This document shows positions 4,401-63,364 of a stretch of DNA of 64,000 bases, in pieces. Location of the stretch: NCBI GenBank assembly GCA_964058845.1, contig CAXKVR010000114.1:124001-188000 (forward strand), read 5' to 3'. A program made the position numbers and the translations under genes. Numbering within the stretch: the stretch's first letter is position 1; the number at the start of each line of letters is the position of its first letter. The notes under the pieces are model-generated. The model saw only the letters and a program-made list of their open reading frames with translations, ran no database searches and had not been told where the DNA came from. The stretch comes from Carex sylvatica (Eukaryota; Streptophyta; Magnoliopsida; Poales; Cyperaceae).

Positions 4401-7400
4401 ATGGCAGGGAATTTGATAACCTCTGTGCTCTCTCTAGCTACCAATTTGCTCCCATCAATTACAGCCTTTGCACAGGCTCCTTCTACCTCTTCATCAAATT
4501 CTAATAACTCAGAAAGGGAGCGTGCTCGTGAGGTTAAGGAGGATCTTGAGAGGCTGATGCGAACTCTGGAGCGAATCAAGGCCACGCTATATGATGCTGA
4601 AGAGAGGGAGATCAGAGACCGCTCTGTCAAGCTGTGGCTCAAGGAGCTAAAGAAGGTTGCTTATGATGCTGAGGATGTGCTCGGTGAGTACCAATATGAG
4701 GTCACACGTGTTCAAGTAGAGGCAAGAAAGGCTTCTCAGGCTTCTGCTTCTCACAAAAGAAAGGAGATGGAGGTTAGTGTCCTGTGCATATAGAAATCAA
4801 AAGGATCTATTTTTTTTTGCCTTTTATCATTGGAAGGTAGAATCTTGGATTTCAATTTAGAATCGAAAAGGGCAACGAAAAAAATTGACAATAATCAATA
4901 TATCAAAATAAAATTTAATTAATATATATAAGTCAGTGTATAATTAAGTTATTAAATATTTATTAACTGAGGTCTAATTCCTATGGAGGTATAATTTTAA
5001 ATATTTTATTTAAGACAATATAAAAAGATCTAACCATGCACAACGAACAATTTTTTTCAAAAATCTACACATTAATAAAGCCGAAATTTCTATTAGTATC
5101 CAAAAATTCTATCAAATTACTGAATCTATCCAATTTTGAGCAGAATTTCAAATAATGTCCTGTCCAGTTAATAAATAACCGAACTGATTGATTTTGTCTG
5201 GTTAATAACTAACCAGACTCAATCTACCCAATTCAAAATTTTTGTCCGATTATTAAATAACCAGATTGAGTTTTTTTTTACATATTGGAATATTAGAAAT
5301 ATTGAATATTTTTTTAAAAAATAGATGTAATACAATATAATTTGATTTATTAGAAAGACTGCAAAAAATAATCCCGATCAATATTTTTCTGATCGAATTT
5401 TTCGTGGCTGTAAGAAAAATTAATATATTTATTTATGTGTTATTAGAAAAAAATAAATATGCTTTGAATGTGAGTTATTGATCGCGGTTCAAAAATCACT
5501 TCTAGATAAAATAGAAAATATTGTGATCCTTCTAGTACATTTAATTTCTAAAAAGTTGTATCTATTTTGAAAATTCTTTTTGATTCACAATCATTAAATA
5601 ACTTAAAGTTTATGGTTTTTTCAAAAATAGATACAACTTTTTAGAAATTAAATGTACTAGAAGGATAACAATATTTTCTATATTTACCTAGAAGTGATTT
5701 TTGAATCCAAGCATTTTTATTTTTTTTCAATAACACATAAAGAAATATATTAATTTTTTTTACAGCTGCGAAAAATCCGATCTGAAAAATGTTGTTCCGG
5801 GTTATTTGTTGCAGTCTTTCTAATAAATTCAATTATATTGTATTCCTTCTATTTTCAAAGAAATATATTCAACATTTATAATATTTCAATATAAAAAATA
5901 AAAAAATTTAAAAAATTTCTGTTTTGTTAAAAAAAAAAAACTCAATCCGGTTATTTAATAACTGGACAAAATTCTTGAATTGAGTAGATTGAGTCCGGTT
6001 AGTTATTAACCGGACAAAATCAATCAGTCAGGTTATTTATTAATCGAGCAGGGTATTATTCGAGATTCTACTAAAAATTAGATAGATTCAGTAATTTGAT
6101 AGAATTTTTTAGCATTAATAAAAATTTCGGTTAATAAAAGTTTGAATGTGTTATTTGAGAAACAAAAAATTTATTAGTGCTGTGTCAATAGTCAAAATTG
6201 TTTTGTAATTATCAGCTCTCATTATTTCACGACATCAATCCGGACCATCCAATTTAATGAGGCAATTATTTTGTAGAATTGTACTATAAAAAATAACACA
6301 GAAATTATTATATGCATGTTAATTTATGCATTTACATTGATAAAAACACTTCGGTTAGAATATATACATAACATATATCACACTATTGAACCAACCACTG
6401 CTGCTGCTTTTTTTTTAAATAAAAAAAATGAACTTGTTAAGTTATTTCCGTACATATTCGATTATTATTGGTCCCCTGATTATCATTTTCAGCTAACAAA
6501 TTTTGAAATTTAACATTGTAATTCATTTTTTTTAACAGTACATTGTACCAATTCCTGATGGCATTGTTGATCGGCTTAACAAAATAAGAAGTCAATTTGA
6601 TGAAATAGCAAAGGATCGTGAGGCTCTTCAATTAAGGGAGAGTGATGGGGTGAGGCGTCCAAACAACAAAATTTTACGACCCCCAACGGGTCACATGGTG
6701 GATGAGACAAACATTTTTGGCAGAGATGCCGACATTTCAAAGGTCATCGATTTCTTACTAACTGAAAAAGAAAAGTCATTATCAGTCATTTCAATTGTTG
6801 GCAAAGGTGGGCTCGGAAAAACCACCATTGCCCAACTTGTCTACAAAGATGAGAGGATTTCCCAGTGCTTTGATTTAAATGGGTGGGTATGCGTCTCTGA
6901 AGAATTTGATGTTAGGAGACTCATCAGAGGGACCATTGAATCATTCTCCGAAACAAATTGTGGTTTAAGTGAGTTGAGTCAATTACAAGAAGAGCTTGCA
7001 AAAATTGTGAAGGGAAAAACAATACTACTTGTTTTAGATGATGTATGGAACGAGAATCATAATCTTTGGGAGTCATTTCGAGTTCCATTAACAGAAGCAA
7101 GGATGGTCAGAATTCTCGTGACAACAAGAAATAAAAAGGTAGCAAAGGTCATGCAAACAACAACTTGTTTTAACCCGAGTAACTTATCTAAAAAATCATG
7201 CTGGCAGTTATTTGAGCATTATGCATTTAGTGGTACAAGTTACACCATGCCAAAACACTTGGTAGATATGGGAAGGGAGATTACCAGAAAGTGTGGTGGG
7301 TTGCCATTGGCTGTAAAGTCAATCGCAAGTCTCCTTAGGCATGAAACTGATGAAGAGGTTTGGAGGGAGATTCTGGAAAGTGGTCTCTGGGAAATGAAAG

Positions 7401-9823
7401 AATCAAAAGAAGAGATTTTTCCAGCACTTCAGATAAGTTATGCTCATCTACCTGCCTATCTTAAGCCCTGTTTTTTGCTTTGCTCAATGTACCCAAAAGA
7501 TTACAGATTACTAAGACAGGATTTGATAAAGTTGTGGATTGCTCATGGGTACATCGAGTCCCGGAGCAATCGAAAAATCACAGAAATTGGTGTTGAATAT
7601 TGGAATGAGTTAAAAGAGAGGTCATTTCTTGATGATTATGGAACTCATTGGTACGAAAATGAATCTGGTAAGTTGCATGATATAATCCATGATCTTGCTC
7701 GATTTATTTCTGAGAATGAACAATACTCGGTGGAGATCAATCATCCACTTGATATTCAAGAGAGAACTATTCCACGAGAAGCATACCATTTATATGTAAG
7801 AGATTCATTGGGATATGTAAATCAAATTCCCCAACAAACTATGAAGGGTTTAAGAACTATTTTTATGAATATCCAAAAATATTGTGGATACGGATTTTGT
7901 ACAAACTGTACAGAGGCAATTGACCAAAACTTCGAGTTGACGGAAGATTGTCAAGATTGTTTGGGAAACGTAACCTTTCATAACCTCACTCAATTTGAAG
8001 TGCTCAGGGTTTTGATATTGGAATGGCATAGTTTGACAAAGATTCCTGATCACTCCATTTCTGAGTTGAAACATCTTACCTATCTAAGTATTACTTCTAA
8101 ACTTCTTAAAGTGTTACCATTATCCATTGGCCTCCTTTACAACCTACTGGCTTTAAAAGTTGAGTGTGAAACCCTCGAATATCTACCTGAAAATATTGGT
8201 GATCTTGCTAACTTACAGTTTCTAACTATTTATGCCAATATTAAAAAGCTACCAAAATCACTATGTTCACTTACTAACTTACTGGAATTAACTATTGGCA
8301 GTCTATTGTTAGAGAAACGTGGATTCTTGGATTATGTCCCTCATGATCTTTTTAATTTTCCATCAGTAGCAAGAATTTTTGCATCATGGAATGTTAGAAC
8401 TATAGGTTGGTTAAAGGATATGAAAGACCTTAAAGGAATGATCTCTATTGGAAAATTGAAGAACATTAATGATTTAGAAGATGCCAAGAGAGCTAACCTG
8501 AGAAATAAATGCAAACTTGAGATTTTAAAGTTATGCTGGGATGATCATATGGATGGTTTTCACAGCAGTGACTCAGAGCTAGAATTAGATCTCGTACCAG
8601 AAGCTTGTGACGGCGGGATAGTTGGGGCAGATGATACACATTTTTCCTTGTTAGAATGCCTCCAGCCACATCCTAACCTCAAGAAACTTGGAGTAAAAGG
8701 TTATCCTTCTGCCATAGTACCTGGATGGATGAGGGATCCATTGTTATTGAAGTCAATTCAAGAACTCAGGTTAGAAAGTTGTGGCAATATCCGAATTATG
8801 CAGCTGGAGCTGCTGCCCTCCCAGCTTGAAACTTTGGAAATTTCAGGGTGTGACCACCTGGAGTTGATTACCGGACTAGGGCATCTGGATAAGTTGGAAA
8901 AACTGGAAATTGATGACTGTAAAACCCTGAAATCACTAACAATGGATGGACTGCAGTTGGTGGAATCTACTGAGCCTTTTAGTGATTCCTCTTATGAAAT
9001 ACCACATATTAATCAACAGAGCATTTCATCACTAGTTCATGTAACAAATTATCCTTCTGCCATAGTACCCAGGTGGATGAGGGATCCATTGTTATTGCAG
9101 GCAATTCAAAAACTCTGGTTATACAATTGTGGCTATATTGAATCCCTTCCATTCGGCAATCTTCTCACTCTCAAGTACCTCTTCATTGCTTTATGTTCTA
9201 GTTTCCGAACTATGCAGCTGGAGCTGCTGCCCTCCCAGCTAGAAATTTTGCGTATTGCATGTTGTAACCACCTGGAGTTGATTACCGGACTAGGGCATCT
9301 GGATAAGTTGGAAAAACTGGAAATTGGTTACTGTGAAACCCTGAAATCAATAACAATGGATGGACTGCTGTTGGTGGAATCTACTGAGCCTTTTAGTGAT
9401 TTCTCTCATGAAATACCACATATTAATCGACAGAGGATTTCATCACTCACATGGTTGGAAATCGAATACTGTGGTTCGCTTCATTCTCTACCGGATGGGT
9501 TGATTCCATCTGGACCTTGTTATGTGCGTGTTTATGGTTGCGGCTGCCCTGCCTACTATAAATCAAATCAGGTTCATAATTTTATTTTTATTATAATTAT
9601 TATTATTTGAATATTTAGATTTTGACCCCTGAACTTTTTCACTTTTATGTAACCATTAGCCTTCGTAAGATTCGTTGACCACAAATAAATATTTCATTTT
9701 TATATTACTTTTCAGTTCCATATTACTTGTTTCGACAAATAAATATTTCATTTTTATATTACTTGTTTGTTTCTGATACATAAGCTCTTGTTCAATTTTT
9801 TTTTGCAGCGTTTTCTTGAATGA
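4401..9823 (+). CDS. CC-NB-ARC-LRR disease resistance protein (RGA type)
   Basis: This is an intracellular immune receptor of the non-TIR class. Model: exons 4401-4772, 6539-9571 and 9809-9823, about 1139 residues. The coiled-coil region has AEDVLGE (about 90-96), a variant of the EDVID motif. NB-ARC motifs appear in order: P-loop GKGGLGKTT (212-220), kinase-2 LLVLDDVW (about 287-294), RNBS-B VTTR (318-321), GLPLA (378-382), RNBS-D CFLLCSMYPKDY (from 435) and LHD at 503-505 where MHD is usual. Leucine-rich repeats fill about 580-1120 and contain an internal duplication. The ATG at 4401 starts a typical N-terminus. The first intron (4773-6538) is in phase 0 and carries a foldback element. The last intron is inferred from CAG/gttcat and ttgcag/CG; without it the frame runs into low-complexity isoleucines and stops at 9610. 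The frame is intact, so the gene may be functional. Confidence 0.9.
5081..6130. mobile_element. MULE-like foldback element inside the first NLR intron
   Basis: A 1050-bp element whose two halves are nearly reverse complements, giving arms of about 500 bp. The ends are CCGAAATTTCTATTA and its complement TAATAAAAATTTCGG. The flanks are TTAATAAAG (5072-5080) and TTAATAAAA (6131-6139), an 8/9 match that fits the 9-bp target duplication of Mutator-like elements. No transposase frame is present, so it is non-autonomous. The hairpin would be transcribed within the NLR pre-mRNA intron. Confidence 0.8.
8701..9450 (+). repeat. Tandem duplication within the NLR leucine-rich repeats
   Basis: Two adjacent in-frame blocks, about 8701-9030 and 9048-9450, encode nearly the same sequence: both begin YPSAIVP, pass through MQLELLPSQLE and LELITGLGHLDKLEKLEI, and end near EPFSD..EIPHIN. 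The second copy has about 50-70 bp extra (encoding a segment around ESLPFGNLLTLKYL). Long identical nucleotide runs indicate a recent unequal-crossover event. Confidence 0.85.
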
Positions 9824-30215: not shown

Positions 30216-31095
30216 ATATCGAGATAGAGAAGAAATAAGAGTGTAAAGATAAATATAATTATTCTCCATCAAAACGCCTACATCCTGTTGTTTTCTTCTG
30301 AGATAAGAAGTGAAAAACAATTTCTCATCAAACTTTTTAAACAATTTAATTTATAATTTAATAATTTTGATTAAAATAAAAATGTCAGTGCGCTTTACAC
30401 GAGGATCAACAAATATTTACATTATCACGTAATTTAAAAAAACAAAAACAATTGCACGGACAAGCCAAAAAAGCTTTCCACAAATAAAATATTTATATTA
30501 TCCAATTTAAGTCTTCTTGCTCCAATTATTGTACCAAGCTATTTAAGTGTTGGAATTTTGACAATTTTAACATCAAAATAGTAATTTAGAAACTCAACAT
30601 GTTTGACACAATATTTACACTACATATACAAATGCATATAAAAGATAATAAAAATTTCATACATGTTTTATCTTTCATCAATAATTAAATTTTTGTTATG
30701 ATATGAATTTGAAGTATCACATGAGCCAATGTACAGAAGTAATCTCTTTCTAGTTTTATTTGTTTCCTTCTCTGTAATTAATAAAAAGGAAAAGGAAATT
30801 GAATGCTAAAGTAAGAAAAAAGTTCAATGTTTCACAATTATTGTGACATTATTATGATATTTTTCATATGAAAAATATAAATTTGAAAAGACAACTCCAT
30901 CACTAGAAAAAATAATGAGGAAAAGAAAAGGGCAAAAAGCTGGTCTAATATTAAATGTAAGAATAGTGAATCAGTCGACAGAATTAAATGTTTTTATAAA
31001 CTTTTACTGACAAAAAAACAAAAAAGAACAAGATATCTCTTTCAACAAAGAAAAAACAGCGCAGTGTCTAAAGACCGTGCAATCTGTATGAGAAG

Positions 31096-31682
31096 TAGGG
31101 GTTTGCTGTCGGGTCGGGTACGAGCGGTCCGGGTATACCCGGGGTCGGGTACGGGTATGGGTCGGGTACGGGTATCCCGGATATACGGGTATCTCGGGCC
31201 GGGTTTGCTCGGGTATTTTTTTCAAAACCCGTACCCTACCCGAGTTATATCCGTGCCCATGGTACCCGGCACGGGTAGGGCGGTCCGGGTAGGGTACCCG
31301 TTTTTTTTTTTTTTTTTTTCTGTTTTTTTTAGGCGGCAAATTCGAAATTTCAAAAAAATTAGAATTTTTTTGAATTTTTTTGAATTTTTTCGAATTTTTT
31401 TGAATTTTTTTGAATTTTTTAACGAGTACGGGTACGGGTCGAGTACGGGTCGGGTCGGGTACAGGTCGGATACGGGTCGGGTCGGGTCGGGTCGGATCGG
31501 GCGTTATTCGGACCTGGTTTGCTCAGATTTTGATCCAAATAACCGTACTCTACCCGTTTTATACCCGTACCCGTGTACCCGTTTACCCGACCCATACCCG
31601 GACTCGGGCACGGGTACCCCAGGTACCGGGCACGGGCGGGTCGGATACGGGTCCGCCCGACCCGGGTATAAGCAAAACACTA
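31096..31682. mobile_element. hAT-type non-autonomous element built of GGGTACGGGTCGG repeats
   Basis: A perfect 8-bp target duplication ATGAGAAG flanks it (31088-31095 and 31683-31690). Ends TAGGGGTTTGCT and TAGTGTTTTGCT (complement of right end) match 10/12. The arms are degenerate repeats of GGGTACGGGTCGGGT on one side and the inverted form on the other; the centre (about 31340-31420) is repeated GAATTTTTTT. Apparent arginine/glycine-rich open frames here are by-products of the repeat. Confidence 0.85.
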
Positions 31683-31827
31683 ATGAGAAGTCACACATTT
31701 TAAACTCAAATAATATATATATATTTGTAAATATTAAGTAGTTGAATGACTTAATCTATACTTTTTATTTTAAAAAAAAATCAGCAGACAAATCCAAGGG
31801 CACACTCAAGTGGAGTGGTGGTGGTTT

Positions 31828-32621: not shown

Positions 32622-33564
32622 GAAAAAGAAAATCTTAATTTGTGATGACCTATCATTGGATATATGTAATTTTCAACCATTTTACAAGTTTTAGAATTAT
32701 TCCTTTTCTTCCTTTATTTCTCAGAAATGTCATGATCGCCTTTTCCTTTTTCTAAATGTAGTAGTAGAAAAGCACTATCATCATTATCTAGAATAATTCT
32801 TGGTTTTTAAACATTAATTGAGATTGCCACTGTTTAGGGGATTTTTATTGAACTTGATGCTTCATTTGTTGCCAATGTGAGATGAACCAGTAAGTACATA
32901 TTAATAGTGCTAGTTTGGTTTGAGGCAGCGCATGTGAAATGGTTATTTTTTTTAACTGTATTACTTGTGCACTGCATCGAGTCAGACCAGCTCTGTCAAT
33001 ATTCTTATCCGAGATAACAGTATGTCATTTTTATTATCAATTTTCTTTTTCTTTTGATAAATTATAAAATATAAATATATATAGTCTCTCTTCAAAATTA
33101 AAAGTAACATTTTTTTGGTCTATCAATAACACTTCTCTGTAAAAAAATTTAATAATTGTACTATTTATCATTCATATTTATTTCTTCCCATGTCACATGA
33201 ATTGTGTGCGTTATGGTTTGATCGTCAAATATGCTTTAAGATCCGTGTACACAAAAAAATTGATGTGAACACATAAATATTAAAACGAAGCATAAAGATC
33301 TTAAAGTATATCAAACAGTCCTAAATTCATCAAACCTAATGCCGACATTTTTAAAAATACTCAAAAAAAAAAAAAAATTATTAAGAATAACAGAGTTGGA
33401 GTTGAAATTTTAAAAATGCCCAAACTGCCTTATTTTTTGGCGGTTAGGAATTTTAATTCCTAACCGCCCCATTTTTGGGCAGTTCGAGATTTTTTTTTTT
33501 TCGGACCGCCCAGAAATTCGGCGGTCAGAGAAATTAAATTTTTTTTTTTTTTCAAATATGGTTA

Positions 33565-34225
33565 ACATAGCAAAACACGTTCAAAAATTATGAAAATTGA
33601 TCGACATGCAGTCTTGACATCGTCGAAAAGGACCGTGAAGTTTCATACAAAATCTCCGAACAAGTATTGAGATATCGGTTCTCAAAAATTATCCGAACTG
33701 CTGAATATTTCATTCTGAGTCCAACTTTGCACAACTGGTTAACATAGCAAAACAGCTTCAAAAATCGTGAAAATTGACTGACATGTAGTCTTGACATCGT
33801 CGAAAAGAACTGTGAAGTTTCATACAAAATCTCCGAACAAGTCTTGAAATATCGGCTCTCAAAAATTGTCCGAACTGCTGAATATTTCATTCTGAGCACA
33901 ACTCTGTACATCTGGTTAACATAGCAAAACACCTTCAAAAATCAGGAAAATTGACCAACATGCAGTCTTGACATCGTCAAAAAGGACTGTGAAGTTTCAT
34001 ACAAAATCTCCAAACAGATATTGAGATATCGGCACTAAAAAATTGTCCGAACTGCTGAATATTTCATTATGACCCCAAATTTGCACATCTGGTTAACATA
34101 GCAAAACACCTTCAAAAATTATGAAAATTGACCGACATGCAGTCTTGACATCATAGAACAGGAATGTGAAGTTTCATACAAAATCTCTGAATAGGTCGTG
34201 AGATATCGGTTTTCAAAAATCTCCA
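33565..34225 (-). repeat. 177-bp array, inverted arm (about 3.7 units)
   Basis: Units read on the minus strand match the main array: TTAACCAGATGTGCA, GAATGAAATATTCAGCAGTT, CGATATCTCAATAC and GACGATGTCAAGACTGCATG. The orientation change lies at about 34205-34240, where a short AATGTGAAGTTTCA..CAGCAGTTCGGACA junction breaks the period. Confidence 0.85.
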
Positions 34226-34239
34226 ACAGGAATGTGAAG

Positions 34240-36345
34240 TTTCAGCAGTTCGGACAATTTTTTAGAGCCGATATCTCAAAGCCTGTTTCAGAGATTTTGT
34301 ATGAAACTTCACAGTCATTTTCGACGATATCAAGACTACATGTCGGTCAATTTTCACGATTTTTGAAGGTGTTTTGCTATGTTAATCAGATGTGCAAAGT
34401 TGGGCTCAGAATGAAATATTCAGCAGTTCGGACAATTTTTGAGAGCCGATATCTCAATACCTGTTTGGAGATTTTGTATGAAACTTCACAGTCCTTTTTG
34501 ATGATGTCAAGACTGCATGTCGGTCAATTTTCACGATTTTTGAAGGTGTTTTGCTATGTTAACCAGATGTGCAGAGTTGGGCTCAGAATGAAATATTCAG
34601 CAGTTCGGGCAATTTTTGAGAGCCGATATTTCAAGACTTGTTTGGAGATTTTGTGTGAAACTTCACAGTTCTTTTCAACGATGTCAAAACTGCATATCGG
34701 TCAATTTTCACGATTTTTGAAGGTGTTTTGCTATGTTAATCAGATGTGCAAAGTTGGGCTCAGAATGAAATATTCAGAAGTTCGGGCAATTTTTGAGAGC
34801 CGATATCTCAATATCTGTTTGGAGATTTTGTATGAAACTTCACAGTCCTTTTTGACAATGTCAAGACTGCATGTCGGTCAATTTTCACAATTTTTGAAGG
34901 TGTTTTTCTATGTTAACCAGATGTTCAGAGTTGGGCTCAGAATGAAATATTCAGCAGTTCGGGCAATTTTTGAGAGCCGATATTTCAAAACTTGTTCGGA
35001 GATTTTGTGTGAACTTCACAGTTCTTTTCGACGATGTCAAGACTGCATGTCGGTCAATTTTCACGATTTTGGAAGGTGTTTTGCTATGTTAATCAGATGT
35101 GCAAAGTTGGGCTCAGAATGAAATATTCAGCAGTTCGGATAATTTTTGAGAGCCGATATCTCAATACCTGTTTGGAGATTTTGTATGAAACTTCACAGTC
35201 CTTTTTGACGATGTCAAGACTGCACGTCGGTCAATTTTCACGATTTTTGAAGGTGTTTTGCTATGTTAACCAGATGTGCAGAGTTGGGCTCAGAATGAAA
35301 TATTCAGCAGTTCAGGCAATTTTTGAGAGCCGATATTTCAAGACTTGTTCTGAGATTTTGTGTGAAACTTCACAGTTCTTTTCGACGATGTCAAAACTGC
35401 ATGTCGGTCAATTTTCACGATTTTTGAAGGTGTTTTGCTATGTTAATCAGATGTGAAAAGTTGGGCTCAGAATGAAATATTCAGCAGTTCGGACAATTTT
35501 TGAGAGCCGATATCTCAATACCTGTTTGGAGATTTTGTCTGAAACTTCACAGTCCTTTTTGACGATGTCAAGACTGCATGTCGGTCAATTTTCACGATTT
35601 TTGAAGGTGTTTTGCTATGTTAACCAGATGTGCAGAGTTGGGCTTAGAATGAAATATTCAGCAGTTCGGGCAATTTTTGAGAGCCGATATTTCAAGACTT
35701 ATTTGGAGATTTTGTGTGAACTTCACAGTTCTTTTCGACGATGTCAAGACTGCATGTCGGTCAATTTTCACGATTTTTGAAGGTGTTTTGCTATGTTAAT
35801 CAGATGTGCAAAGTTGGGCTCAGAATGAAATATTCAGCAGTTTGGACAATTTTTGAGAGCCGATATCTCAATACCTGTTTGGAGATTTTGTATGAAACTT
35901 CACAGTCCTTTTTGATGATGTCAAGACTGCACGTCGGTCAATTTTCACGATTTTTGAAGGTGGTTTTCTATGTTAACCAGATGTGCAGAGTTGGGCTCAG
36001 AATGAAATATTCAGCAGTTCGGGCAATTTTTGAGAGCCGATATTTCAAGACTTGTTCGGAGATTTTGTGTGAAACTTCACAGTTCTTTTCGACGATGTCA
36101 AGACTGCATGTCGGTCAATTTTCATGATTTTTGAAGGTGTTTTGCTATGTTAACCAGATGTGCAAAGTTAGGCTCAGAATGAAATATTCAGCAGTTCGGA
36201 CAATTTTTGAGAGCCGATATCTCAATACCTGTTCGGAGATTTTGTATGAAACTTCATAGTCCTTTTCGACGATGTCAAGACTGCATGTCGATCAATGTTC
36301 ATGATTTTTGAAAGTGTTTTGCTATGTTAACCAGATTTGAAAAAA
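34240..36345 (+). repeat. 177-bp tandem array, direct arm (about 12 units, alternating types)
   Basis: The marker ATGAAATATTCAG starts at 34411, 34588, 34765, 34942, 35118, 35295, 35472, 35649, 35825, 36002 and 36179: period 177, twice 176 because of a one-base loss in GTGTGAACTTCACAG. Units alternate strictly between a type with ATATCTCAATACCTG and CACAGTCC, and a type with ATATTTCAAGACTTG, GTGTGAA and CACAGTTC, giving a 354-bp higher-order unit. Because 177 is 3 x 59, long open frames of 59-residue periods run through the array; these are not evidence of a gene. Confidence 0.9.
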
Positions 36346-36540
36346 AAATTAAAAAATTAAAAAAAAAAATTTTTAAAAAAAAAATCTCGGACCGCTGAAA
36401 AATGGGGCGGTTAGAAATTAAAATTCCTAACCGCTAAAAATGAGGTGGTTTGGGCATTTTTAAAATTTTAACTCTAACCCTTTTATTCTTAATAATTTGT
36501 TTTTTTTTTTGGGTATTTTTAAAAATGTCGGAACCTAATG

Positions 36541-61373: not shown

Positions 61374-61990
61374 CACTAGTGGAAAAATAAGAATCAGGAT
61401 CGGCCTATCTTGATCGGCTATATGAGACAACCGATATTAATATCTATCTGGATCGGTTTTATTTACAAAATTGATCCTAAAAACTAATAAGATCGGGTTT
61501 TTTAGTCAACCGATCCTATTTTGTTAACTATCAGGATTGGTTTTCTCTAAGAACCGATCTTGATACTATCAGGATCGGTTGTATATAAAAACTGATCCTG
61601 ATAGTTAACAAAATAAGATCGGTTGTTTAGAAGAACTGATCCTGATAGTATCAGGATCGGTTTTTATAAACAACCGATTGTAAAATTTTTTTTTTTTTTC
61701 AGAACCAACTTAAAAAAAAAAAAAAACTATTAAGATCGGTTGTTTCAAAACAACTGATCATGATAGTATCAGGATCGGTTTTTATAAACAACCGATCCTA
61801 AAATATATATTTTTTTTTTCAGAACCAACTTAAAAAAAAAAAAAACTATTAGGATCGGTTGTTTTTGAAACAACCGATCCTAATAGTGTTTTTTTTTTCA
61901 GAACCAACTTAAAAAAAAAATACTATTATGATCGGTTGTTTTGATACAAAGGATCCTAATAGTGTTTTTTTTTTCTTTTAAGTTGGTTCT

Positions 61991-62021
<31 letters not shown>

Positions 62022-63286
62022 CACTATTAGGATCGGTTGTTTTGAAACAACCGATCCTGATAATACTATCTATCAGGATCGGTTGTTTCAAAACAACCGA
62101 TCCTGATAACTCTCTAGGGTTCTTATTTTCATTCCGCGCCTCTCATTTTCAACTTAGCGAAAATCAAACCCGCCTCTCAACTCCTCTGTCTCTCTCTCTG
62201 TCTCATTCTCTCCCTCTTCTAGGGTTCTTATTTTCATTTTGCATCTCTCATTTTCAACTTTGCAAAATTCAAACCCGCCTCTTAACTCGTTCGTCTCTCT
62301 CTCTCTGTCTCCGGCGTCTCTCAACTTAGCAATCTTTGTCTCTCTCTGTCTCGATCATGTCAAAAAAAGCTGAAGAAGACGAAAACTGACAAGGATGTGC
62401 CATCAATCTCTTCTAAGTTCATGGAATGAGATGAAGGATGAAGCCCCGGCTTATGCCCTTAAATTATACTTAAGGTACATACTATTTATTTCCTCAAATC
62501 TCTTATGTACATTTGAGCATCTTTTGTATTTTTAATTTACACTAAATTGCAGTATTACAGTTCATGGTTTCAATTTTTTTTCATTTTTTTCATTTGAGCA
62601 AGGCTTTTTGAGATTATTCCATCGATGGTGAAGAGGTACACTTTGAGGTATGCTAGCTAGCTAGGTTTTTCTTGTCTTTCAATTTAAATAATACATGCAT
62701 CGAAGATGCACAAGCAAACAATTAATGATATAAATATTTGTTCAGATTTTGAAGTTTGCACTGGAGGAGACGATAAAAGAGGGAGTGCCATACATGTGTC
62801 TAAATTTTATTTTGCTATTGCACCAAATTTCTTCAACTATTGTACTTCTTTTCGTGTTTCATGAATTTTATTTTGTGTTCTTAATTGATTTTGAGCTCCA
62901 ATAAATCAATGGTAAATAAAAAAAAAAATTATGCTGATCAGCAAATATATATGGAAGCTGGCCAAATAAAAAAAAAAAAATTTTTAGATCCAATATAACA
63001 TCAGGATCGGTTGTTTTAAACAACCGATCCTGATAGTTTTTTTTTTTTTTTAAGTTGGTTTTGGAAAAAAAAAAAAAAACACTATTAGGATCGGTTGTTT
63101 TGAAACAACCGATCCTAATAGTATTTTTTTTTAAAGCTGGTTCTGCAACAAAAAAAAAAGTATTAGGATCGGTTATTTAACCGATCCAGATTAGTGTAGT
63201 ATCAGTATCGCCTTCATCAGGATCGGTTGTATTCCAATACTAATATATGTATATAACCGATCCTGATTCCATATTTTCCACTAGTG
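61374..63286. mobile_element. Non-autonomous CACTA (En/Spm-type) transposon
   Basis: Starts CACTAGTGGAAAAATA and ends TATTTTCCACTAGTG, with the 3-bp duplication TAA on both sides (61371-61373, 63287-63289). The subterminal regions are dense in inverted copies of ATCAGGATCGGTTGTTT, about 20 in total, the usual layout for CACTA transposase binding sites. Length is 1913 bp with no transposase frame. The interior (about 62110-62900) is different in character and includes a tandemly duplicated leader-like segment, CTAGGGTTCTTATTTTCATT. Confidence 0.9.
62112..62335 (+). repeat. Tandem duplication of leader-like sequence inside the CACTA element
   Basis: CTCTAGGGTTCTTATTTTCA..CTCTCATTTTCAACTT..CAAACCCGCCTCT occurs at about 62112-62215 and again at about 62217-62335, each followed by a CTCTGTCTCTCTCT run. 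It resembles the 5' leader of a plant gene. Downstream frames are interrupted, so no intact gene is called. Confidence 0.6.
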
Positions 63287-63364
63287 TAAGCATATACCCT
63301 CATATGCTTATGTAAGTAGAGTAGCCAACCCCTCTCTCTTTGTGTCTATATATATATATATATA

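Follow-up and report, generated by a model that had tools for sequence, protein, structure and literature searches.

The element at positions 33342-36531 of the window, by which we mean the whole 64,000-nucleotide stretch of DNA that was analyzed, very probably belongs to a MULE (Mutator-like) family as one of its non-autonomous foldbacks, formed in a sedge of the Carex lineage from the family's own tandem array. The element is 3190 bp long (assembly coordinates C114:157342-160531) and carries the terminus CCGACATTTTTAAAAATA exactly, with 0 mismatches, at both ends. A perfect 9-bp target duplication, AACCTAATG, brackets it at 33333-33341 and 36532-36540. Its features, in window coordinates, are as follows.

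33333-33341, no strand: left 9-bp target-site duplication, AACCTAATG
33342-33500, plus strand: left terminal inverted repeat (TIR), which begins CCGACATTTTTAAAAATA and has 90% identity to the right TIR
33532-34232, minus strand: left arm, four inverted 177-bp units
33532-33705, minus strand: left-arm unit T (outermost)
33706-33882, minus strand: left-arm unit, b-like
33883-34059, minus strand: left-arm unit a
34060-34232, minus strand: left-arm unit J1 (innermost)
34233-34240, no strand: centre junction, 8-bp core
34241-34418, plus strand: right arm, innermost direct unit, J2 type
34419-36186, plus strand: right arm, ten direct units forming five a-b dimers with a 354-bp higher-order period
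34950-35125, plus strand: b2, a 176-bp b unit, the first with a one-base loss
35657-35832, plus strand: b4, a 176-bp b unit, the second with the one-base loss
36187-36354, plus strand: right arm, outermost direct unit, T type
36375-36531, minus strand: right TIR, terminus TATTTTTAAAAATGTCGG
36532-36540, no strand: right 9-bp target-site duplication, AACCTAATG

Tandem Repeats Finder returns 3.7 copies of the 177-bp unit at 33559-34220 and 11.9 copies at 34241-36343, and tiling of the element gives 4 inverted and 12 direct units. An earlier note on this DNA had described the 9-bp duplications, the ends and the approximately 3.7 inverted and 12 direct units, all of which we recover. The inverted arms are 635-636 bp long with a complementarity of 92-93%, and over their outer 879 bp the element ends match one another in inverted orientation at 89%, supporting the pairing length of about 880 bp that had been proposed. 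The element is thus a foldback element in the structural sense, having long inverted repeats that are built of direct tandem repeats and are predicted to fold back.

The host assembly that we searched comprises 64 Mb in 950 contigs, and the window falls in contig C114. An 18-mer from the TIR, allowing at most 1 mismatch, has 165 + 154 sites in these 64 Mb, compared with 0 for the reversed control. As a sample of the family, 24 merged contig stretches were scanned for both ends; both are found in 16 stretches and one end only in 7. The target duplications of the 16 paired copies are perfect over 9 bp in 11 cases, perfect over 8 bp in 3 and with one mismatch in 9 in the remaining 2. A candidate end pair in C138 shows no duplication and was dropped as including a chance right end. 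Among 15 further, diverged loci, perfect 9-bp duplications are present at 5 (C31, C410, C420, C6 and C25), imperfect ones have one mismatch (C128 and C93b), two (C28b) or three (C9), and both ends were not found at 6. The earlier note had staked its reading on the existence of other copies with these ends and 9-bp duplications, and the paired copies provide them. Target-site duplications of 9 bp, within the 8-10 bp range that defines MULEs, therefore flank the window element and members of its family alike. A search for an empty paralogous site with the 250-bp left flank matched only the flank itself and one partial place at 75%. At C6:545223-548367, one forward and two reverse TIR sites occur within 3.1 kb, which resembles the pattern of nested copies or of an element with an additional terminal repeat.

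Some members of the family carry a transposase. Among the TIR sites listed, matches to PF10551 (MULE transposase domain) lie between forward and reverse TIR sites in C15, C31, C48, C56 and C60, and the TIR pairs that enclose them are 9.6-11.7 kb apart. The long copy in C60, the only one in which the duplication was examined, is 10,545 bp long and has GCAATGTTC on both sides, a perfect 9-bp duplication. Its TIRs, compared as its first and last 156 bp, are identical at 149/156 positions (96%). DBD_Tnp_Mut, MULE and SWIM domains are encoded by its ORFs of 662 aa and 275 aa, which occupy two slightly overlapping frames, a layout that may reflect an intron. Among named relatives of the transposase, the nearest comes from Carex rostrata (75%, across 59% of the query). 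The ends of the window element are thus common to an element that encodes a mudrA-like transposase, and its description in the earlier note as a MULE-like foldback element is borne out by an own-genome family with the same ends and 9-bp duplications, in which the long elements enclose a MULE transposase match.

The long copies also carry the repeat. Downstream of the transposase ORFs in C60 is an array of four units in one orientation (L069:4513-5216; BLAST match 4516-5244), the units being 75-79% identical to the window sequence. Likewise, 13 of 14 transposase-adjoining stretches contain 177-bp-type units (52 units), in one orientation each. The number of units per stretch is 1 in C48, 2 in C86, 3 in C138, C15 and C645, 4 in C60, C179, C157 and C31, 5 in C56 and C282, and at least 7 in C201 and C499. 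In the fourteenth, C335:45500-47100 (L074), which lies beside an intact 665-aa transposase frame, the stretch contains 0 units of the 177-bp type, so that C335 is either an array-less copy or has its array outside the stretch sampled. The repeat is thus missing next to the transposase in only one of the 14 stretches, which indicates a native array of the family whose copy number is labile there too. This minisatellite has a period of 176-177 bp in the long copies, with a spacing of mostly 176 bp. A 307-aa open frame in the right arm of the window element raised the prospect of coding arms, which we rejected because the mostly 176-bp spacing in the long copies keeps no frame.

In majority unit, the main-family foldbacks and the sampled long copies are 77% identical, so that these long copies are cousins of the main-family foldbacks and not their direct source; no long copy with closer units was found among those sampled. 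Majority units of the foldback groups are 71-83% identical to those of the long copies, and 67-78% identical to those of the C31 long copy. Short elements with the repeat in one orientation are also present: those in C6 (2150 bp) and C25 (1866 bp) each combine the family ends with a perfect 9-bp duplication, and all of their units are direct. In majority unit they match the foldbacks C22, C122, C273, C410, C420 and C448 at 92-97% identity.

For a comparison of arms and centres, we tiled 21 main-family elements (the 16 paired and 5 incomplete copies) into 161 units. Two opposed arms are present in 18 of the 21, and C618, C94 and C327 are single-armed in the stretch examined. Repeat number varies among the 16 paired copies, from 2-6 inverted and 2-12 direct units, the 12-unit arm of the window element being the longest array among those seen. 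Outermost units are more similar between elements (mean distance 0.097) than within their arm, where they stand at 0.127 from the inner units. The innermost units, when pooled, have no such position-specificity (0.104 between elements vs 0.101 from the inner units within an arm); the two innermost units of the window element are of two kinds, each with its nearest relatives at the centres of other elements. Measured as edit distance to the window's centre junction, 12 of 18 main-family centres (the window's included) lie within 10 edits, five are recognisable variants at 13-19 edits (C189, C884, C82, C318 and C725) and that of C28 is at background with 30 edits, related centres read in the wrong orientation scoring 24-31. 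Since most main-family foldbacks have one common centre, they descend from a single founder that spread with 9-bp duplications.

Outside the main family, one centre at 10 diverged foldback loci (C93b) matches that of the window, at 11 edits, and nine do not. When scanned whole, those nine loci score 27-34 edits, compared with 33-35 for the centreless arrays of long copies; redoing the comparison over whole loci left its outcome unchanged. The differences in centre junction among foldback groups suggest several independent foldback formations. Judged from these junctions, foldbacks probably arose more than once, at least three of the formations being compatible with a snap-back, and later remodelling of centres may lower the count of independent origins. 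In a snap-back, repair or replication of the array would switch to the complementary strand and so yield a foldback directly. As that process predicts, the array turns back at near-equal unit positions in C31 (145/145), C273 (85/86) and C448 (106/113), and the turn in C22 is close to symmetric (9/19, with about 30 bp between); C9 and C128 are excluded from this comparison. Several centres are asymmetric, including the main-family one, and these count against a simple snap-back: C244 (main family) turns at 13/171, C410 at 170/25, C420 at 176/104 and C122 at 59/106. They would be accommodated if the formation step were instead recombination of two oppositely oriented elements lying next to each other, an alternative to snap-back within an array that we regard as possible rather than probable, given the near-equal turns. 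A suitable arrangement exists in C157, where a right family end at 194911 is only 131 bp from a foldback start at 195043 (L005, L079). Further left in C157 are a transposase match (192356-192655) and a one-orientation array (189606-190366), so that a long copy apparently adjoins a foldback there. Foldbacks formed from the family's own array, by either step, would then be mobilised in trans by the long-copy transposase acting on the CCGACATTTTT end, as the ends that they share with the long copies suggest.

The arms could also have a regulatory effect. In maize, Mu killer is a precedent for silencing through double-stranded RNA (dsRNA), and dsRNA made from foldback arms might similarly silence the autonomous MULE in nature. 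The RNA of 33549-34931 is predicted to fold as one near-continuous hairpin (-1015.5 kcal/mol, a figure without a shuffle control at that length), and folding of an arm transcript as dsRNA is physically sound as a prediction. Moreover, foldbacks have exact 21-mers in common with the long-copy array stretches (the long-copy arrays with their flanks) and TIRs: the C31 and C34 loci share 19 and 31 21-mers, and 7 and 18 24-mers, respectively, with the array stretches, with which the rest of the window, as a control, shares 0 21-mers. However, the window copy shares only 6 21-mers and no 24-mer with the array stretches, just 11 21-mers and 8 24-mers with the long-copy TIRs, and none with the transposase ORFs. 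C410 and C420 have no 21-mer in common with either arrays or TIRs, and C6 and C25 likewise have none in common with the array stretches. On these sequence matches, a hairpin trigger acting on the long copies is possible but thin, and we consider it unlikely that silencing is what the foldbacks do. A broader proposal, that the MULE minisatellite is repeatedly made into hairpins, with the turn at varying unit positions, that parasitise and silence the MULE, as a built-in "Mu-killer"-like generator whose trigger is lengthened by dimer growth, seems to us unlikely as well.

The earlier note regarded the array as possibly captured. MULEs have a known capacity to acquire host DNA, and the 177-bp unit length and head-to-tail order of the repeat do resemble those of a plant satellite, so that a pre-existing genomic satellite might have been captured in the style of a Pack-MULE, with the long MULEs acquiring the repeat separately. 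Such a capture is not needed to explain an array that adjoins the transposase, in one orientation, in nearly every long-form locus sampled, and the occurrence of the same repeat in transposase-bearing long copies, short one-orientation copies and foldbacks argues against it. A 28-base anchor, allowing up to 3 mismatches, has 321 + 278 sites in the genome (control, 0), and among the best-scoring and listed matches there is no long free 177-bp array, none exceeding 12 units, in a 64-Mb assembly that may lack satellites; the diverged loci at which both ends were not found bear on the same point. Matches to the array that lie outside the survey include those in C424, C858, C99, C111, C230, C828 and C916 and a single site at C43:333277. 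In addition, the main satellites of two Carex species have periods of 29-31 bp, according to the available part of PMC9526063. Taken with the shared repeat, these observations leave capture very improbable. The same part of that source records that sedges include species with holocentric chromosomes (PMC9526063), a setting that lends mobile repeat sources special interest; nothing ties the 177-bp repeat to centromeres. Satellite DNA is typified by long free arrays, generally in heterochromatin. The element may be a mobile seed for satellite spread, as the earlier note proposed, but the longest array among the matches scored is the window's own, with 12 units.

Within the array native to the family, the right arm of the window element has a higher-order organisation. 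Nine columns distinguish two unit types, a and b, and across the ten inner direct units (34419-36186) the a-b alternation occurs five times. The mean differences among these ten units are 12-15 of 177 columns at odd lags and 5.5-7 at even lags, and the permutation p value for the alternation, 0.0079, is the lowest that two groups of five allow. The earlier note had called the array strictly alternating, a description that holds for the inner ten direct units and not for all 16 units: neither the innermost direct unit (34241-34418) nor the outermost one (36187-36354) belongs clearly to a or b, and the inverted (left) arm has a single a/b-like pair. Satellite-type higher-order structure, that is, alternating types with a multimer period, is thus present in the ten inner right-arm units only. 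Elsewhere, a-like units adjoin b-like units in the left arms of the window element, C149 and C807, in the right arm of C382 and twice in C618; the other elements tiled have no longer run of a/b pairs, and several are uniform. Given these a/b pairs in relatives and the lack of longer runs there, the five a-b copies of the window element reflect amplification of such a pair in a single arm. That the alternation is an artefact of a collapsed or expanded repeat in the assembly is scarcely credible, since, difficult as repeats of more than 90% identity are to assemble, the units differ by distinct private variants, a matching duplication pair encloses the whole element and a/b pairs are found again at other loci.

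These variants bear on how the dimers multiplied. The one-base loss previously placed near 35008 and 35715, four units apart, is located in b2 and b4, being confined to the units at 34950-35125 and 35657-35832 and absent from the other 159 tiled units. Among the 161 tiled units, this loss and a second variant, C in unit column 100 (a3 and a5), are the only two that are restricted to 2-3 units of the window's right arm. Both pairs lie four units apart and adjoin one another, as expected from one duplication of a 708-bp block. Column 93 (b1 and b3) fits the same duplication, but its variant occurs elsewhere in the family, and columns 48 and 135 group the right-arm units otherwise, in conflict with it. 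The column 84 variant (a1 and a5) recurs eight units apart. Overall similarity at lag 4 is not significantly above that at lag 2 (permutation within types, p = 0.12). The duplication of blocks of two dimers, as claimed before, therefore has the two private variants in its favour but no support from the overall lag-4 similarity, and the evidence for a duplicated two-dimer (708-bp) block in the right arm is suggestive. The wider claim, of satellite-style amplification inside a mobile element, is upheld by the tandem growth by dimers seen there. Arms of the family would gain and lose units through unequal exchange or slippage, and in the window copy the exchange register would have been the a-b pair, bringing the 354-bp dimer to five copies in one arm only.

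Other features of the window lie apart from the element. At 61380-63290 there are many palindromic repeat copies, AGGATCGGTTGTTT...AAACAACCGATCCT, between A/T runs, ending ...TTTTCCACTAGTG at about 63286; this region resembles a CACTA-type transposon in its subterminal part and right end. A 986-aa ORF occupies 6650-9610, and its residues 1-480 match NB-ARC/LRR disease-resistance (NLR) proteins, with up to 81% identity to Carex rostrata vs 38-49% to the Rhynchospora proteins listed. This match and the Carex rostrata relative of the transposase suggest a host of the Carex lineage. Low-complexity CGGGT/GTACGGGTCGG tandem repeats at 31064-31741 lie inside a 225-aa frame that is probably spurious.

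The anatomy of the family is mostly shared with elements known from other organisms, as far as the available portions of their descriptions extend; our literature search found no report of foldback elements in Carex. Tetris of Drosophila virilis has long TIRs with a variable number of tandem repeats of about 220 bp and 8-10-bp duplications, and is non-autonomous (PMC4079207, available text). The sedge foldbacks are like it in having tandem repeats in long inverted arms, duplications of similar size and a non-autonomous nature. Tetris elements were proposed as building blocks of satellites, and free arrays of kilobase size exist; no autonomous copy was found, and a 37-bp similarity suggests that the repeat was derived from the domain flanking the TIR (same portion of PMC4079207). 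Unlike Tetris as described there, the sedge family has a transposase-bearing long copy, a repeat that is internal to that copy and no free array that we have seen. In the Tm1 Mutator/Foldback elements of the nematode Meloidogyne, most duplications are of 9 bp, the TIRs are composite with a varying number of repeats, and there are both coding (transposase) and non-coding members (PMC3169594, in part). These elements thus resemble the sedge family as MULE-like foldbacks with 9-bp duplications, variable repeats and members of both kinds, and differ from it in that their repeat unit is 13-15 bp, whereas the sedge family has a 177-bp unit and a dimer period.

Among plants, tomato and other species have amplified MULEs with multiple long TIRs in tandem (PMC3310237, accessible part). 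The likeness lies in their being plant MULEs with tandemly duplicated, amplified terminal regions; whole TIRs are in tandem in those elements, whereas in the sedge family an internal minisatellite forms the arms, with up to 12 units. FARE of Arabidopsis, Tnr8 of rice and the elements of Rebatchouk and Narita are also plant foldback elements, likened here by title alone. In the available parts of the accounts of Tetris, Tm1 and the tandem-TIR MULEs, we did not find the combination of a transposase MULE with an internal minisatellite, a one-orientation short form, foldbacks with multiple centres and dimer growth in one arm. Set beside those systems, this one genome holds the full series, from a transposase MULE with a variable minisatellite, through one-orientation derivatives and foldbacks with several centres, to a multiplying a-b dimer. 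The series makes two points testable, namely the origin of foldbacks and the start of higher-order satellite structure inside a mobile element.
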